Below, piece by piece: positions 24,007-29,091 of a stretch of 40,004 nucleotides of DNA. Position numbers and translations under genes: made by a program. Source of the stretch: Eubacteriales bacterium (GTDB taxonomy: Bacteria > Bacillota > Clostridia > Lachnospirales > Lachnospiraceae); the NCBI GenBank assembly GCA_030536855.1, contig JAUNPK010000016.1, forward strand, positions 27,775 to 67,778. Direction: 5' to 3'. The first letter of the stretch is position 1, and every line of letters starts with the position of its first letter. The notes beneath the pieces are model-generated. The model saw only the letters and a program-made list of their open reading frames with translations, had not been told where the DNA came from and searched no databases.

Positions 24007-25548
24007 CTACCAATATCCCAGGCTTCTGCCCTTTTCGTAAATTCCCTGTGCCTTTGCATAATATCCGTAAGCGTTAAAATGAGTCCAGTCAGCTCTTAAC
24101 TGAGGTGAAATATCACCCCTTAAATAATAATCCAAATCCTGTCTGTTTGCATCTAATCCGCATATACTTAATCCGTTCTTTATAAGATACACTCTTGTAT
24201 TAAAGAAATGTTCTCCGTAGGCTTCCCGTAGTGCAGCCTCCCAGGATGTATCACCAATACCTACATAGGAGCCCGAATCATCAAATTCTGTCTGATTGTT
24301 GTCCCCTATTGATGTTCCGGGATCATCTGTATCACCCACAATAATATAATACTTACAACCGGAATTATTAATAATTGAGTCATATTGTGCTATAAGCTGT
24401 CGATAATCACTATCCCATCCTCCGTTGCTGCCAATCTCAAGAATGAGTATATCATCCTGATGATCCACCGACACTTTAGATTTTGCTACAGTTCCAGCTT
24501 CAAACATCACACTTTCAATTTTTGGAATCTGAGTTGTTGTTTCAGGAACCTTTGTTGTCTCAGGAACTGTTGTTGTCTCCTGTGGCTTCGTTTCCTTTGT
24601 TGTCTCTGTAATTGAACCGGTCTCACCATTAGAAGATGTTGATGTTGTTTCATTATAATTTCCAGTGGCTGAAATATCCACCCCTGTTGTTTCCTGCTGT
24701 CTTTCTTCTATGTCATTACTATAAGTAACATTATTGTATGCTGCATAACCTTTTACAAGTTTTATCCTTACCAGATCATCTTCAACATTTTCTACATTAC
24801 AGAGATATCCTCCAATATACATAGTGTTAGGATAATTATTACCCTCAATTCCATATCCGCTGTATTCAGCCCTCGTAATCCTGTTCCCAGAAGAGTCCAA
24901 CAGTGCAACAACTGCAGATACATCTTCGCTGATTGTCACACTTCTGTCTATATAAAGGAGTTCTCCTCCCGCTCTGTAGGTAATCTCTAGTGAATTTTCA
25001 CCACTCACTCCGAAATTGTATGTCCTGATTCCCGTAAAATATTGTAATGAATATGGTGTGGTCCAACCCGTAATATCCTTCCCGTTAACAACAGCCTTAA
25101 CATAATCACTACATGCACCCTGCATCATACTGTCTCCATAACAGGAAATAGTTCTCTTTTTTCCATCATATGGAATAACTCTGTTATCAAAATCTCTTGG
25201 TGGAAGTTCCAGTGCCTCCTGGTCTTCTGTTGCAATCTCTTCTTCAAAAAACTTCTCCAATTCCTCTTCAGGAACTTCTTCTGTAGCATCCTCTGATGTT
25301 TCTTCCTGTTCTTCCTCAACAATGTCTGTTGTTGTCTCTATATAATTAAATGTAGTAGTTTCCTGACAGGTTGTTTCCTCTGCATCTGTCTCAATAGGTT
25401 CTGTATTATAGAAATTATGCATTGCAACAAATATAACAGCCACAATCGCTCCTACTACAGTAATTCCACCTATTATCCTTAACAAAATTTTTTTGTTTAC
25501 CTGTTTACTAATTAACGATATTTTCTTTTTAAGCATTTTGTTCACCAT
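24007..25548 (-). CDS. Membrane-anchored SGNH/GDSL-type hydrolase with Thr-rich insert
   Basis: A 513-residue protein: basic N-terminus, one membrane helix (about 21-43), a Glu/Thr-rich stalk (50-115), then an SGNH domain. Block I is GDSM (Ser140), block II FGVSGENS near 179, block III GSNGG (Asn375), block V DWTHFN (Asp487, His490). Between blocks II and III lies a roughly 180-residue insertion holding a beta-rich part and, at about 287-340, a Thr-rich stretch with repeated ETT and VPETT units. Such enzymes deacylate polysaccharides or other esters outside the cell. The neighbour at 25682-26881 is a paralogue lacking this insert. ATG 25548 has no good ribosome binding site; ATG 25536 follows GGTGA. 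The substrate is unknown. Confidence 0.8.
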   Translation of the reverse strand: MVNKMLKKKISLISKQVNKKILLRIIGGITVVGAIVAVIFVAMHNFYNTEPIETDAEETTCQETTTFNYIETTTDIVEEEQEETSEDATEEVPEEELEKFFEEEIATEDQEALELPPRDFDNRVIPYDGKKRTISCYGDSMMQGACSDYVKAVVNGKDITGWTTPYSLQYFTGIRTYNFGVSGENSLEITYRAGGELLYIDRSVTISEDVSAVVALLDSSGNRITRAEYSGYGIEGNNYPNTMYIGGYLCNVENVEDDLVRIKLVKGYAAYNNVTYSNDIEERQQETTGVDISATGNYNETTSTSSNGETGSITETTKETKPQETTTVPETTKVPETTTQIPKIESVMFEAGTVAKSKVSVDHQDDILILEIGSNGGWDSDYRQLIAQYDSIINNSGCKYYIIVGDTDDPGTSIGDNNQTEFDDSGSYVGIGDTSWEAALREAYGEHFFNTRVYLIKNGLSICGLDANRQDLDYYLRGDISPQLRADWTHFNAYGYYAKAQGIYEKGRSLGYW

Positions 25549-25681
25549 TTCAATCAGGGTCTTTTTTCATACCTGCTTGTCCCTTGTAAGTTTCTCATCT
25601 GATTATATATACGAATTTAAACCACTTTTTGTCTTCTATTTAGCATAAAAATTTACATAAAGAACAGGTAATTTGTTACTT

Positions 25682-26881
25682 TTATTGCCAATAACCTAAT
25701 TCTACACCTTTTTTATAAATTGCCAAGCCTTTTGAATAATATCCATAAGAATTAAAATGTGTCCAGTCACTTCTTAATCTTTCCGGTATTAATCCATTTC
25801 TTGCCATCCTTCTTTCCTGTTTCGTGCGTGCAAGACCTACGTCCTTAAGTCCATATTTTATTAGGTAAGCACGCATATTAATAAAATGTTCCCCATAGGC
25901 TTCTCTTAAAGTTGCTTCCCAAGATGTATCTCCTGTACCAATTCTTGTACCATCTTCGTTGCGTTCTCCCTGATTTGTATCTGCCAGTGATGTTCCCGGG
26001 TCATCCGTATCTCCCACAATTATATAGTACTTACATCCAGAATTCTCAATTATGGCATCATACTGTTTTATAAGTTCCTGATAATCATTCCAACCACCAT
26101 TACTTCCTATTTCCAGAATTAATATATCATCTTTTCTCTCGTAAGATGCCTTAGTGTATACCTGTTCATTTTCCTTAATTACAATATATTCATCATTTTC
26201 TACAGATTCCTTTGAATATCTCTGTATGTGTAGCCCTTCCTCTTCCGTACCTGTAATCTTAAACAGCTGCTTATCAATGTACACTAAGTCGGGTTCCTCT
26301 AATTCCACATAACCATAAGCACTAAAATCAGCCATAAATATTTCATTATCATATTCATCTAGAATTGTTACATTTACGGGTTCATTATACCCCACGGTAA
26401 ATCCATCCTTGACACGCATCTTAATCCCACCTGCTCTTAAAGCAATATCATAGGAAGTTTCCCCCTCAACTCCAAGATTATATGTCTTTATACCTGTTAA
26501 AGTCTCTATGGTTGAAGGAGACGTCCAACCTGATATATTGACCTCTTCTCCTTCATTATTCACAAATATTGCATAGCCTGCTCCGGTTCCATACGTCATG
26601 GAATCTCCCCAGCAGGTTATAGTTCTTTCAATTCCATCATAAGGTATAACACTACCATCAAGGGTTCTGCGTGGCAATTCATACGCCTCTTCGTCCTCAT
26701 CAGGAATTACAATATTTTCTTCTGTTTCATTTTGTTTCTCAATATCTGACGGACTCTCCTCTAAATTATAGACTGCCACCGTAATAATAGCAGTAAAAAA
26801 TACAAGAAACATCAATCCAATAATGGCTTTTCGATTTATATTATATTGTCTTTTTTCATGCATATCCTTATATTTCCTCAT
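25682..26881 (-). CDS. Membrane-anchored SGNH/GDSL-type hydrolase (paralogue)
   Basis: A 399-residue protein with an N-terminal membrane helix (about 18-37), an acidic stalk (40-67) and an SGNH domain: GDSM with Ser94, LGVEGETS near 136, GSNGG with Asn261 and SDWTHFN with Asp372 and His375. About 110 residues, predicted beta-rich, separate blocks II and III. It shares long near-identical runs with the protein at 24007-25548, notably GCKYYIIVGDTDDPGTS and LREAYGEHF, so the pair is a tandem duplication. GGGAGAT stands four bases before ATG 26881. Likely an extracellular carbohydrate esterase or similar; substrate unknown. Confidence 0.8.
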   Translation of the reverse strand: MRKYKDMHEKRQYNINRKAIIGLMFLVFFTAIITVAVYNLEESPSDIEKQNETEENIVIPDEDEEAYELPRRTLDGSVIPYDGIERTITCWGDSMTYGTGAGYAIFVNNEGEEVNISGWTSPSTIETLTGIKTYNLGVEGETSYDIALRAGGIKMRVKDGFTVGYNEPVNVTILDEYDNEIFMADFSAYGYVELEEPDLVYIDKQLFKITGTEEEGLHIQRYSKESVENDEYIVIKENEQVYTKASYERKDDILILEIGSNGGWNDYQELIKQYDAIIENSGCKYYIIVGDTDDPGTSLADTNQGERNEDGTRIGTGDTSWEATLREAYGEHFINMRAYLIKYGLKDVGLARTKQERRMARNGLIPERLRSDWTHFNSYGYYSKGLAIYKKGVELGYWQ

Positions 26882-27060: not shown

Positions 27061-27999
27061 TTAATTATTACTGAACAATGCTGTAGAGAGATATCTGTCT
27101 CCTGAATCCGGAAGAAGAACTACTATATTCTTTCCCTTGTTTTCCGGTCTATTTGCAATTATTGTTGCTGCCTTAAGAGCGGCACCTGAAGAAATTCCAA
27201 CTAAAACGCCTTCGCTTGTAGCAAATGCTCTTCCTTCTTCAAATGCATCATCGTTGTCAATAGCAATAATCTCATCGTAAACCGATGTATTAAGAGTTTC
27301 AGGAACAAATCCTGCTCCTATACCCTGAATCTTGTGAGGACCAGGTGTTCCTTTTGAAAGTACCGGGCTTCCTGAAGGCTCCACTGCAATAATCTTTACA
27401 TTTGGATTTTTCTCTTTCAAATATTCACCAACACCTGAAATTGTACCACCAGTACCAACACCTGCAACAAATATATCAACCTTTCCTTCTGTCTGATCCC
27501 ATATTTCCGGACCTGTAGTAGCTTTATGTATTGCCGGATTAGCTGGATTTACAAACTGTCCGAGAATAATAGAATTAGGAATAGTCTTATTAAGCTCTTC
27601 AGCCTTGGCAATTGCTCCCTTCATTCCCTTGACACCTTCTGTAAGAACAAGTTCAGCTCCGTACGCCCTCAAAAGATTTCTTCTCTCAATTGACATAGTA
27701 TCAGGTAATGTAAGTATTGCCTTATATCCTTTTGTAGCTGCTACTGCTGCAATACCAATACCTGTATTACCGCTTGTTGGTTCAATAAGTGTAGCCCCTG
27801 GCTTAAGTTTTCCACTTTTCTCTGCGTCTTCTATCATTGCTAAAGCAACTCTGTCCTTAACTGAACCCGCCGGATTAAAATATTCAAGCTTTGCAAGTAT
27901 TGTAGCATCTGTAACCCCTGCTTTTTTAGCATATCTTTCAGCATTTAATAAAGGTGTATTTCCCACTAATTCCAATGCACTTCCAATAATTTTACTCAT
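27061..27999 (-). CDS. cysK: Cysteine synthase (O-acetylserine sulfhydrylase)
   Basis: A 312-residue PLP enzyme that makes cysteine from O-acetylserine and sulfide. The cofactor lysine is Lys48 in [12 protein letters not shown], the substrate loop is TSGNTGIG near 74, and [12 protein letters not shown] binds the PLP phosphate. AGGAGG stands eight bases before ATG 27999. It has its own consensus promoter overlapping the larE stop codon, a leader of about 215 bases with a small ORF rich in cysteine codons at its end, and a strong terminator. This points to regulation by cysteine supply. Confidence 0.95.
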
Positions 28000-28017
28000 A
28001 ATAAAATCCTCCTGATT

Positions 28018-28100: not shown

Positions 28101-28148
28101 TTAGCAACAACACAAATATCTTCCGCTGTAAAACTCGTCTTTTATCAT
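28101..28148 (-). CDS. Cysteine-codon leader peptide upstream of cysK
   Basis: A 15-codon frame encodes MIKDEFYSGRYLCCC and stops with TAA. The three cysteine codons TGT TGT TGC are the last before the stop. AAAGGAG stands eight bases before the ATG, a ribosome binding site as good as those of the real genes. The frame lies about 70 bases after the predicted transcription start and its stop is 101 bases before the cysK ATG. A run of codons for the product amino acid before a biosynthetic gene is the hallmark of a leader peptide that senses charged tRNA; polycysteine leaders of this kind are described in mycobacteria. Its role here is inferred. Confidence 0.72.
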   Translation of the reverse strand: MIKDEFYSGRYLCCC

Positions 28149-28223
28149 AAACTCGACTCCTTTTTTAGTGCTTGCGTTTATTCTACCTATATTTCTGATA
28201 GGTTTAATTTGTTTATGTATCGA

Positions 28224-28252
28224 ATTATACACACACAACTTTTCTTTGTCAA
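28224..28252 (-). promoter_or_regulatory. Consensus promoter of the leader ORF-cysK unit
   Basis: On the minus strand a perfect TTGACA (28247-28252) and a perfect TATAAT (28224-28229) are 17 bases apart. The TGA inside TTGACA is the stop codon of larE. A small hairpin, ACCTAT/ATAGGT with a seven-base loop (28185-28203), lies in the early leader before the leader ORF. No T-box sequence or known riboswitch consensus is visible. Confidence 0.85.
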
Positions 28253-29091
28253 TATTTTTTTAATATTTCATTCATGCTTCCTGTTCTGTATCCTAATAAA
28301 TCCATAGTTACATAATCAAAGCCATATTCTTTCAATTTTTTATATATTAAGTTTCTATTGCATTCTTCCATCAGCTTTTCAAACTCTTCCGGCATTATTT
28401 CAATTCTTGCTATTTTGCCGTGAATTCGTACTCTCACCTGGTGGAATCCCATATCCAACAGAAGCTGTTCAGCCTTATCAACCATGGATAACTTCTCTTT
28501 TGTTATAGTCTCTCCGTATACAAATCTTGATGAAAGACAGGCAAAAGACTGTTTTCCCCATGTTTTGAGTCCAAGATATTTCGACAATACCCTGATATCC
28601 TCCTTGGTCATATCACTGTACTTAAGGGGACTTTTAACATTCAGCTCTGCCACTGCTATAAGACCCGGTCTGTAGTCCCCGTCATCGTCAATATTGGAGC
28701 CCTCTATAACCTCTGCAATATCATTATCCTTTGCAATATTTGTTATTTTAGTAAATAACTCTTTTTTGCACAGGTAACATCTGTTTGGCGGATTATGAGA
28801 AAAGCCTTCTATTTCCAACTCCTCCGAATCGCATATAAAATGTCTGATTTTTTCAATTCTGCAAAAAGCCTTTGCCTCATCTAATTCTCTTTTGGGAAAC
28901 GAACATGATTGTGCAGTAACAGCAACCGCATCATCCCCCAATACTTCGTGTGATACTTTTAACAAAAATGTTGAATCCACACCTCCTGAAAAGGCAACTG
29001 CCACAGAGCCCAATTTCTGCAGATAACTCTTAAGGTTATTCAGTTTATCCATTTGCTGTTTAGTTGGTTCAATAACATTTTTCTCTTCCAT
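28249..29091 (-). CDS. larE: ATP-dependent sulfur transferase LarE
   Basis: A 280-residue PP-loop enzyme of the LarE family, which adds sulfur to the pyridinium cofactor precursor of lactate racemase and related enzymes. The PP-loop SGGVDST is at 35-41. CYLC (Cys105, Cys108) and CLSSR (Cys185) give three conserved cysteines, the pattern associated with a [4Fe-4S] cluster that carries sulfide, while the Lactiplantibacillus enzyme sacrifices a single cysteine at the Cys185 position. AAGGA precedes ATG 29091. No larA, larB or larC is in the window. It lies just before cysK, whose promoter overlaps its stop codon, and 51 bases after tcdA. Confidence 0.88.
   Translation of the reverse strand: MEEKNVIEPTKQQMDKLNNLKSYLQKLGSVAVAFSGGVDSTFLLKVSHEVLGDDAVAVTAQSCSFPKRELDEAKAFCRIEKIRHFICDSEELEIEGFSHNPPNRCYLCKKELFTKITNIAKDNDIAEVIEGSNIDDDGDYRPGLIAVAELNVKSPLKYSDMTKEDIRVLSKYLGLKTWGKQSFACLSSRFVYGETITKEKLSMVDKAEQLLLDMGFHQVRVRIHGKIARIEIMPEEFEKLMEECNRNLIYKKLKEYGFDYVTMDLLGYRTGSMNEILKKY

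Follow-up and report, generated by a model that had tools for sequence, protein, structure and literature searches.

What does a short open reading frame (ORF) ending in three cysteine codons do between a promoter and a cysteine synthase gene? The question is raised by a 40,004-nt stretch (the window) of a 2.40 Mb, 99% complete Lachnospiraceae genome, on whose minus strand the order is larE, promoter, inverted repeat, Shine-Dalgarno (SD) sequence, leader ORF and cysK. The TGA stop of the upstream neighbour larE (28249..29091; ATP-dependent sacrificial sulfur transferase, TIGR00268, 327 bits, cut-off 150) overlaps the -35 box of a sigma-70-type promoter, TTGACA-N17-TATAAT (28224..28252; TTGACA 28252-28247, TATAAT 28229-28224), which matches the consensus at 12/12 positions. 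Between this promoter and the leader SD, in the initially transcribed region, lies the palindrome AAACCTATCAGAAATATAGGTAG (inverted repeat I3, 28180..28208, no strand; core CCTATCAGAAATATAGG at 28186-28202), a candidate CymR/Rrf2-type operator. The leader SD, GGAG (28157..28160), stands 8 nt before the ATG at 28148, and the -10 box ends 75 nt before that ATG, making this an SD start rather than a leaderless one. The ORF itself (28101..28148) has 15 codons encoding MIKDEFYSGRYLCCC (ATG ATA AAA GAC GAG TTT TAC AGC GGA AGA TAT TTG TGT TGT TGC TAA), with the Cys codons TGT TGT TGC directly before TAA. From the leader stop, 87 nt with 22% G+C lead to the AGGAGG that we read as the SD of cysK (28008..28013), followed by cysK itself (27061..27999; cysteine synthase A, TIGR01139, 444.3 bits, cut-off 350.95). 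This layout confirms the preliminary description, which had reported a perfect promoter followed by an SD-started Cys-Cys-Cys-stop ORF and cysK.

That description had also found neither a T-box nor a terminator in the window, and this holds. No Rfam family scored above threshold in the 40-kb window and there was no T-box covariance match; among 20 cysK loci searched with Rfam there was likewise no T-box, and only tRNA genes matched. The terminator scan returned 0 intrinsic terminators between leader ORF and cysK, and the best that a looser scan offered was a hairpin of -6.2 kcal/mol that covers the Cys codons and precedes TTACATTTA, without a T tract. The rut site of Rho-dependent termination is C-rich, and the A+T-dominated stretch after the stop is unlike that. 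Elsewhere in the window (24007-26881), neighbouring ORFs of 513 and 399 aa share GDTDDPGTS and GDTSWEA..REAYGEHF and resemble tandem copies of a membrane-anchored protein.

Whether the ORF is more than a functionless product of chance can be judged from shuffles, from the rest of the genome and from relatives. An SD ORF with Cys-Cys-Cys (CCC) arose in 0/20,000 dinucleotide-preserving shuffles of the window leader. The 12-mer TGYTGYTGYTRA (Cys-Cys-Cys-TRA; searched as TGYx3-TRA, TAG stops left out) occurs at 43 places in the genome, compared with 6 for the pattern read backwards, and after inspection of all 43 the window leader was the one with an in-frame SD start within 150 nt. The earlier claim that three Cys codons before a stop are unlikely by chance was thus borne out. 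The absence of the leader from the examined genus mates would suit a chance ORF, but the shuffles, the genomic search and the recurrence of Cys leaders across the family all argue against it, and we regard it as very improbable. That the ORF truly encodes a leader peptide, with Cys codons that report tRNA-Cys charging, is in our judgement reasonably probable.

For the comparison across relatives we collected 217 cysK upstream regions (reduced to 208 and then, under a stricter duplicate filter, to 206) from 22 genus genomes, the best 80 named loci and at least ~150 places in 299 family genomes, part of which were used (28 new loci, 80 regions); G302, a cysK place interrupted by an internal stop, was left out. 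Of the best 80 named cysK relatives, 39 carry a Lachnospiraceae title, and one genome of the same genus has a compared cysK upstream (L016) identical to that of Eubacterium sp. AF22-9 (L059). SD ORFs with CCC were present in 10/206 upstreams (L008, L044, L052, L056, L092, L121, L124, L133, L150, L161), against 1 on the antisense strand and a mean of 0.03 in shuffles (highest 1 in 60 sets; 0 in 60 sets for shuffles made before two duplicates left the set), counts whose significance is overstated by the kinship of some sequences, L052 and L056 for example. Among same-residue triplet runs in the 206 upstreams, no amino acid besides Cys exceeded 4 (F 4, L 4, R 3 being the next). A Cys-Cys (CC) pair within an SD ORF of <=45 codons was found in 27/208 upstreams, 18 of them leader-like by position; the other nine (L014, L015, L016, L064, L103, L118, L132, L136, L198), judged by position to be far upstream or inside neighbouring genes, were set aside, including those of the genus mates L014-L016, in which the CC frame lies inside the upstream gene.

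Within the genus the picture is different. Homologous leaders lacking the ORF, which the preliminary description had named as speaking against its reading, are what we found here: none of the 27 other same-genus cysK-like upstream regions carries a comparable leader (36 places found; 6 without a locus left out, L012 without upstream DNA and L033 a duplicate), and the trait is therefore patchy. A DNA search of 22 genus genomes recovered the leader in full from no genome but its own, with short pieces making up the six other matches, and within genus g80 some species have a leader and others the operator alone. The proposed sensing of charged tRNA-Cys accordingly gained ground in one respect and lost it in another: Cys leaders precede cysK far above chance across Lachnospiraceae, but the ORF is not kept within the genus. 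The recurrence of SD-started Cys-codon leaders above chance makes sensing of charged tRNA-Cys the likeliest role. A cysK tree for dating gain and loss was discarded, its resolution being too weak (16/123 inner branches starred) and cysK too mobile.

In a held-out set of 33 new upstreams (30 after three already seen were dropped), four had Cys leaders, one without a terminator (L327) and three with one (L325 and L352/L353); L352 and L353 encode the same peptide, and the genome of L353 is also that of L244. A CC frame in L337 was taken as unrelated. The fixed operator-to-cysK statistic of this set was modest, with 4 Cys in 51 codons and 18/500 shuffles as high. Two further observations concern the wider set. 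One 36-codon leader (L074/L274) has 7 Cys without a tight run behind the same operator, and sister species have the operator without any leader. Moreover, cysK genes 76-83% identical to that of the window occur in metagenome-assembled genomes (MAGs) labelled Bacteroidales, Paludibacteraceae, Alistipes and Treponema (L038-L040, L043, L053, L055, L065, L069, L085, L088, L094, L106), reflecting either recent transfer or mis-binned contigs.

The relatives fall into two forms. An intrinsic terminator of -13 to -17 kcal/mol with a T tract lies between leader and cysK in 9/17 leaders examined (L044, L121, L124, L092, L093, L138, L145, L161, L135; group A), while the other 8/17, the window included, have no terminator better than -7.3, except that in L150 a looser scan shows a hairpin of -12.2 within the leader, its T tract poor. 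In all nine group A leaders the distance from start region to T tract is 159-176 nt, and their peptides follow the pattern M..MCCC[QHK]xVC..TVYF. These terminators indicate that classical attenuation does occur in Lachnospiraceae, and group A leaders, as judged from their sequences, are classical cysteine attenuators. In group A, as distinct from the window, the position of the ribosome on the Cys run would decide terminator formation: at low Cys-tRNA the ribosome would wait on the run and transcription would read through.

Covariation bears on the same structures. In 19 aligned attenuators, fitted to a covariance model (R1; 19 pairs) and including its nine training sequences, two helices were paired in 93.4% of cells, and 11/19 pairs showed changes on both sides compared with 5.7 in shuffles; 0/500 shuffles reached any of five covariation measures, and sliding the helix partner lowered pairing to 18-50%. 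Antiterminator-like duplexes lie in similar places, with the 5' arm near the ORF end in 6/9 attenuators, and were not better than shuffles in any of the nine (lowest z -1.6), for which reason we do not claim an antiterminator in group A. At three attenuator-bearing loci (3 of 12 scanned), a tRNA-Cys(GCA) gene follows cysK in the same orientation at ~70-270 nt (L044 3152-3223, L145 1362-1433, L135 1599-1668), and tRNA-Cys and cysK possibly share one transcript there.

Searching 397 family genomes with R1 (E <=0.01) gave 26 matches in 25 genomes, comprising six training members, eight new Cys leaders (L233, L237, L238, L239, L240, L244, L247, L255), one match before cysK without Cys codons (L241) and 11 without a Cys leader, which we took as chance terminators. 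Among 391 class genomes, five gave a match at E <=0.001: one new Cys leader (L262), the known L244 and three without a Cys leader. Genus genomes gave 32 matches at E <=1, of which the top three were inspected and lacked a Cys leader; the best match in the own genome had E 0.22, and the window had none, its best minus-strand score being 5.1 bits.

The genes behind the new R1 members extend beyond cysK to an NlpA/MetQ lipoprotein (L237), a MetN-type ATPase with a NIL domain (L238), a Cys/Met-metabolism PLP enzyme (Cys_Met_Meta_PP, L247) and a solute-binding protein of family 5 (L240). At one locus (L361) a MetN-type gene is accompanied by ORFs that by eye resemble metI and metQ, and another combines a PLP enzyme and a cysK-like gene with metNIQ-like ORFs, the transporter genes again by eye (L363). 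Nitrogenase-like genes recur as well: NifH above cut-off with NifD-, NifK- and SsuA-like genes (L358), NifB-like and NifD-like genes with an OppA-like protein (L359), cysK-like and NifD-like genes (L360) and, by eye only, two NifDK-like ORFs further downstream (L362), the NifD-/NifK-like scores being far below nitrogenase cut-offs. In one genome outside the family, a Cys leader precedes a NifH operon (L262). At the leader locus of L359 (L255), the stretch directly behind the terminator resembles, by eye, a broken cysK piece. In Rhodobacter, a nitrogenase-like enzyme and the SsuCAB transporter are reported to obtain sulfur from isethionate (PMC11423573), and this precedent leads us to read the attenuator-led nitrogenase-like operons (L358, L359, L360, L362) as sulfur acquisition, probably serving organosulfur use and not nitrogen fixation.

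Lacking a terminator, the window leader was placed in the second form (group B), whose Cys codons sit at or close to the stop. In an extended set (223 regions, 219 once two duplicates of the 208 set and two more were out), 92/219 regions had an operator-like site (<=1 mismatch) with >40 nt behind it, and 31 SD ORFs lay between site and cysK, compared with 20.9 in shuffles. Cys made up 80/549 codons (14.6%) of these 31 ORFs, a count that includes group A leaders and the near-identical L052 and L056, against 3.1% in shuffles (highest 7.5%, n=200). Eight of the 31 ended in Cys-stop (L008, L052, L056, L115, L130, L188, L271 and the second ORF of L138, a group A locus), against 0.48 among 20.9 shuffled ORFs (highest 3); with duplicates left in, the same counts were 93/223 regions, 87/584 Cys codons and 8/32 Cys-stop endings. 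The leader of L130, a close cysK relative in another genus, encodes MKRDNYWLSYSMARC and also has 15 codons.

A codon preference was noted as well. The octamer CGATGTTG occurs in 10/235 regions, compared with 0.55 in shuffles and 2 on the antisense strand, and in 10/10 it reads as Arg(CGA)-Cys(TGT) of an SD ORF (L052, L072, L089, L114, L115, L130, L133, L144, L150, L327). In 24 hand-chosen leaders, CGA is the Arg codon used immediately before Cys in 12/14 cases, against 9/37 for other Arg codons; across 128 cysK genes it accounts for 2.1% of the 973 Arg codons. CGA pairs were slow in a Salmonella his-leader assay (PMC4046918), and we suggest that a CGA codon prepares the ribosome to pause in a Cys-dependent way. 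There is no CGA in the window leader (TTG TGT TGT TGC TAA), and the CGA idea thus does not explain it.

The leader shares its promoter with the palindrome, and here the preliminary description was incomplete: it had missed the candidate CymR/Rrf2-type operator. The exact motif CCTA-N9..11-TAGG occurs once in the 40-kb window, as the operator core (N9), and in 72/206 cysK upstreams compared with 1.45 in dinucleotide shuffles, with a spacing of N9 in 74/75 sites and the consensus AAaCCTAtTaAaaaAgTAGGAAa. A loose form (one mismatch, gaps 7-11) was found in 131/206 real and also in ~50/206 shuffled regions, so that the loose-site set is impure. The palindrome resembles what we take to be the CymR motif. 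The genome encodes two full-length Rrf2 proteins, one with CymR as its best NCBIfam model (L146; 134 bits, below the cut-off of 195) and one with the Rrf2 superfamily model (L147), and CATA-N9-TGGG, two mismatches from the operator, lies upstream of L146. A CymR-like protein may bind the candidate operator. In a clade near Eubacterium ruminantium (upstreams of L022, L135, L145 and similar), TTATC-N6-GATAA-like repeats and a conserved TTTTCAAA...TAGTCAATCC stretch stand in place of the CCTA operator; the repeats look like a putative LysR-type activator site.

How the window leader may act on cysK was weighed against two further explanations. In a translational attenuator of the mycobacterial polycysteine type, the cysK SD would be exposed only when a ribosome waits at the Cys codons. 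The Cys run at the stop and the lack of a terminator are as in the Actinobacteria cases, and a 9-bp inverted repeat (I2) joins 28098-28090, just after the stop, to 28026-28018, just before the cysK SD. The modelled effect has the wrong direction, however, as a ribosome on the Cys codons lowers the unpaired value of the SD from 0.61 in the free RNA to 0.48 and 0.25, so that no SD release was modelled, and the leader and the stretch after the CCC fold no better than shuffles (z +0.49 and +1.07); translational attenuation of this kind therefore seems improbable. The same modelling of 10 other terminator-less leaders gave a clear rise in SD access only in L271, whose SD lies under the ribosome footprint itself, and a slight one in L072, L114 and L188.

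A CymR/Rrf2-like repressor might instead control cysK alone, the ORF being a translated, effectless remnant of an attenuator that lost its terminator. The recurrence of the exact operator before cysK would fit, as would the CymR-like gene L146, the predominance of operator-like regions without a leader ORF (of 131 regions that have a site, 31 show an SD ORF behind it), five genus mates with the exact operator and no ORF (L009, L010, L011, L013, L017) and the lack of a switch in folding or SD-release modelling, the folding analysis of the window having found no competing antiterminator. Yet a remnant should not retain an SD, a frame and three Cys codons up to the stop, and terminal Cys is also found in other terminator-less leaders; we consider a remnant rather unlikely. 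We favour, with moderate confidence, a sensor of charged tRNA-Cys under a CymR-like repressor. The repressor would govern initiation from the operator; the leader, as a member of a patchy Lachnospiraceae family, would tune what follows, its Cys codons reporting tRNA-Cys charging. A waiting ribosome would then raise cysK output by protecting the mRNA 5' end or by another step without an RNA switch. Waiting ribosomes protect mRNA in erm leaders, and that such protection is the output step here is possible, if somewhat doubtful.

Comparison with known systems places the window leader among several types of control. The cysK gene of C. perfringens has a Cys T-box (PMC2940859), with the same gene and the same signal, tRNA-Cys charging; there the tRNA binds the mRNA, whereas we propose sensing by the ribosome and find no T-box. 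For C. acetobutylicum, cysK is predicted to be under CymR control (PMC3828012); the candidate Rrf2-type operator on the cysK promoter would make the window alike, with the difference that a Cys leader ORF is added. Cys leaders without terminators were predicted in Actinobacteria (Seliverstov 2005, PMC1262725), and the polycysteine short ORFs of mycobacteria (Canestrari 2020, as cited in PMC13236596 and PMC9094748) share with the window a short ORF, a Cys run near the stop before cysteine genes and no intrinsic terminator. Those ORFs are leaderless, however, whereas the window has an SD start, a candidate CymR-type operator, a place in another phylum and nine relatives with terminators. In Rhodobacterales, uORFC-8-2 is a cysS attenuator with tandem Cys codons (PMC8632094), resembling the window in being an upstream ORF with such codons and its nine relatives in having an intrinsic terminator; it differs in preceding cysS, in being confined to alpha-proteobacteria in that account and in having its Cys codons inside the first stem, the window being without a terminator. 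Classical his/trp attenuators and the His leaders that replace T-boxes in bacilli (PMC2965389) likewise have a run of regulatory codons, with a terminator before the gene as in the nine relatives. The window matches the his/trp type in its SD-started short ORF with a regulatory-codon run before the matching biosynthetic gene; the differences are cysteine, Lachnospiraceae and a branch without terminators. The open-access literature, among the best matches listed and with subscription papers mostly outside, contained no cysteine leader in Lachnospiraceae or other Clostridia; Cys leaders being known in Actinobacteria and Rhodobacterales, the Lachnospiraceae occurrence is hence new as far as that literature shows.

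Lachnospiraceae with such leaders probably sense cysteine supply by the ease with which ribosomes read them. More broadly, we tentatively propose that the family may run much of its sulfur economy on ribosome-read Cys leaders that replace Cys T-boxes. They would form a mobile regulon of cysK, Met/Cys importers, reverse transsulfuration and nitrogenase-like operons, the last probably for sulfonate or organosulfur, together with a new hairpin-free output form with Cys at or near the stop and mostly, the window excepted, a slow CGA before Cys. The leader would suggest, in specific and testable form, how gut Lachnospiraceae with T-box-less cysK leaders control this gene, and it would tie the codon content of a leader ORF to the sulfur regulon. 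The attenuator further suggests that some nitrogenase-like operons are sulfur-acquisition systems and not nitrogen fixers, and the terminator-less form in the window raises the question of how a leader ORF may regulate without a hairpin switch.
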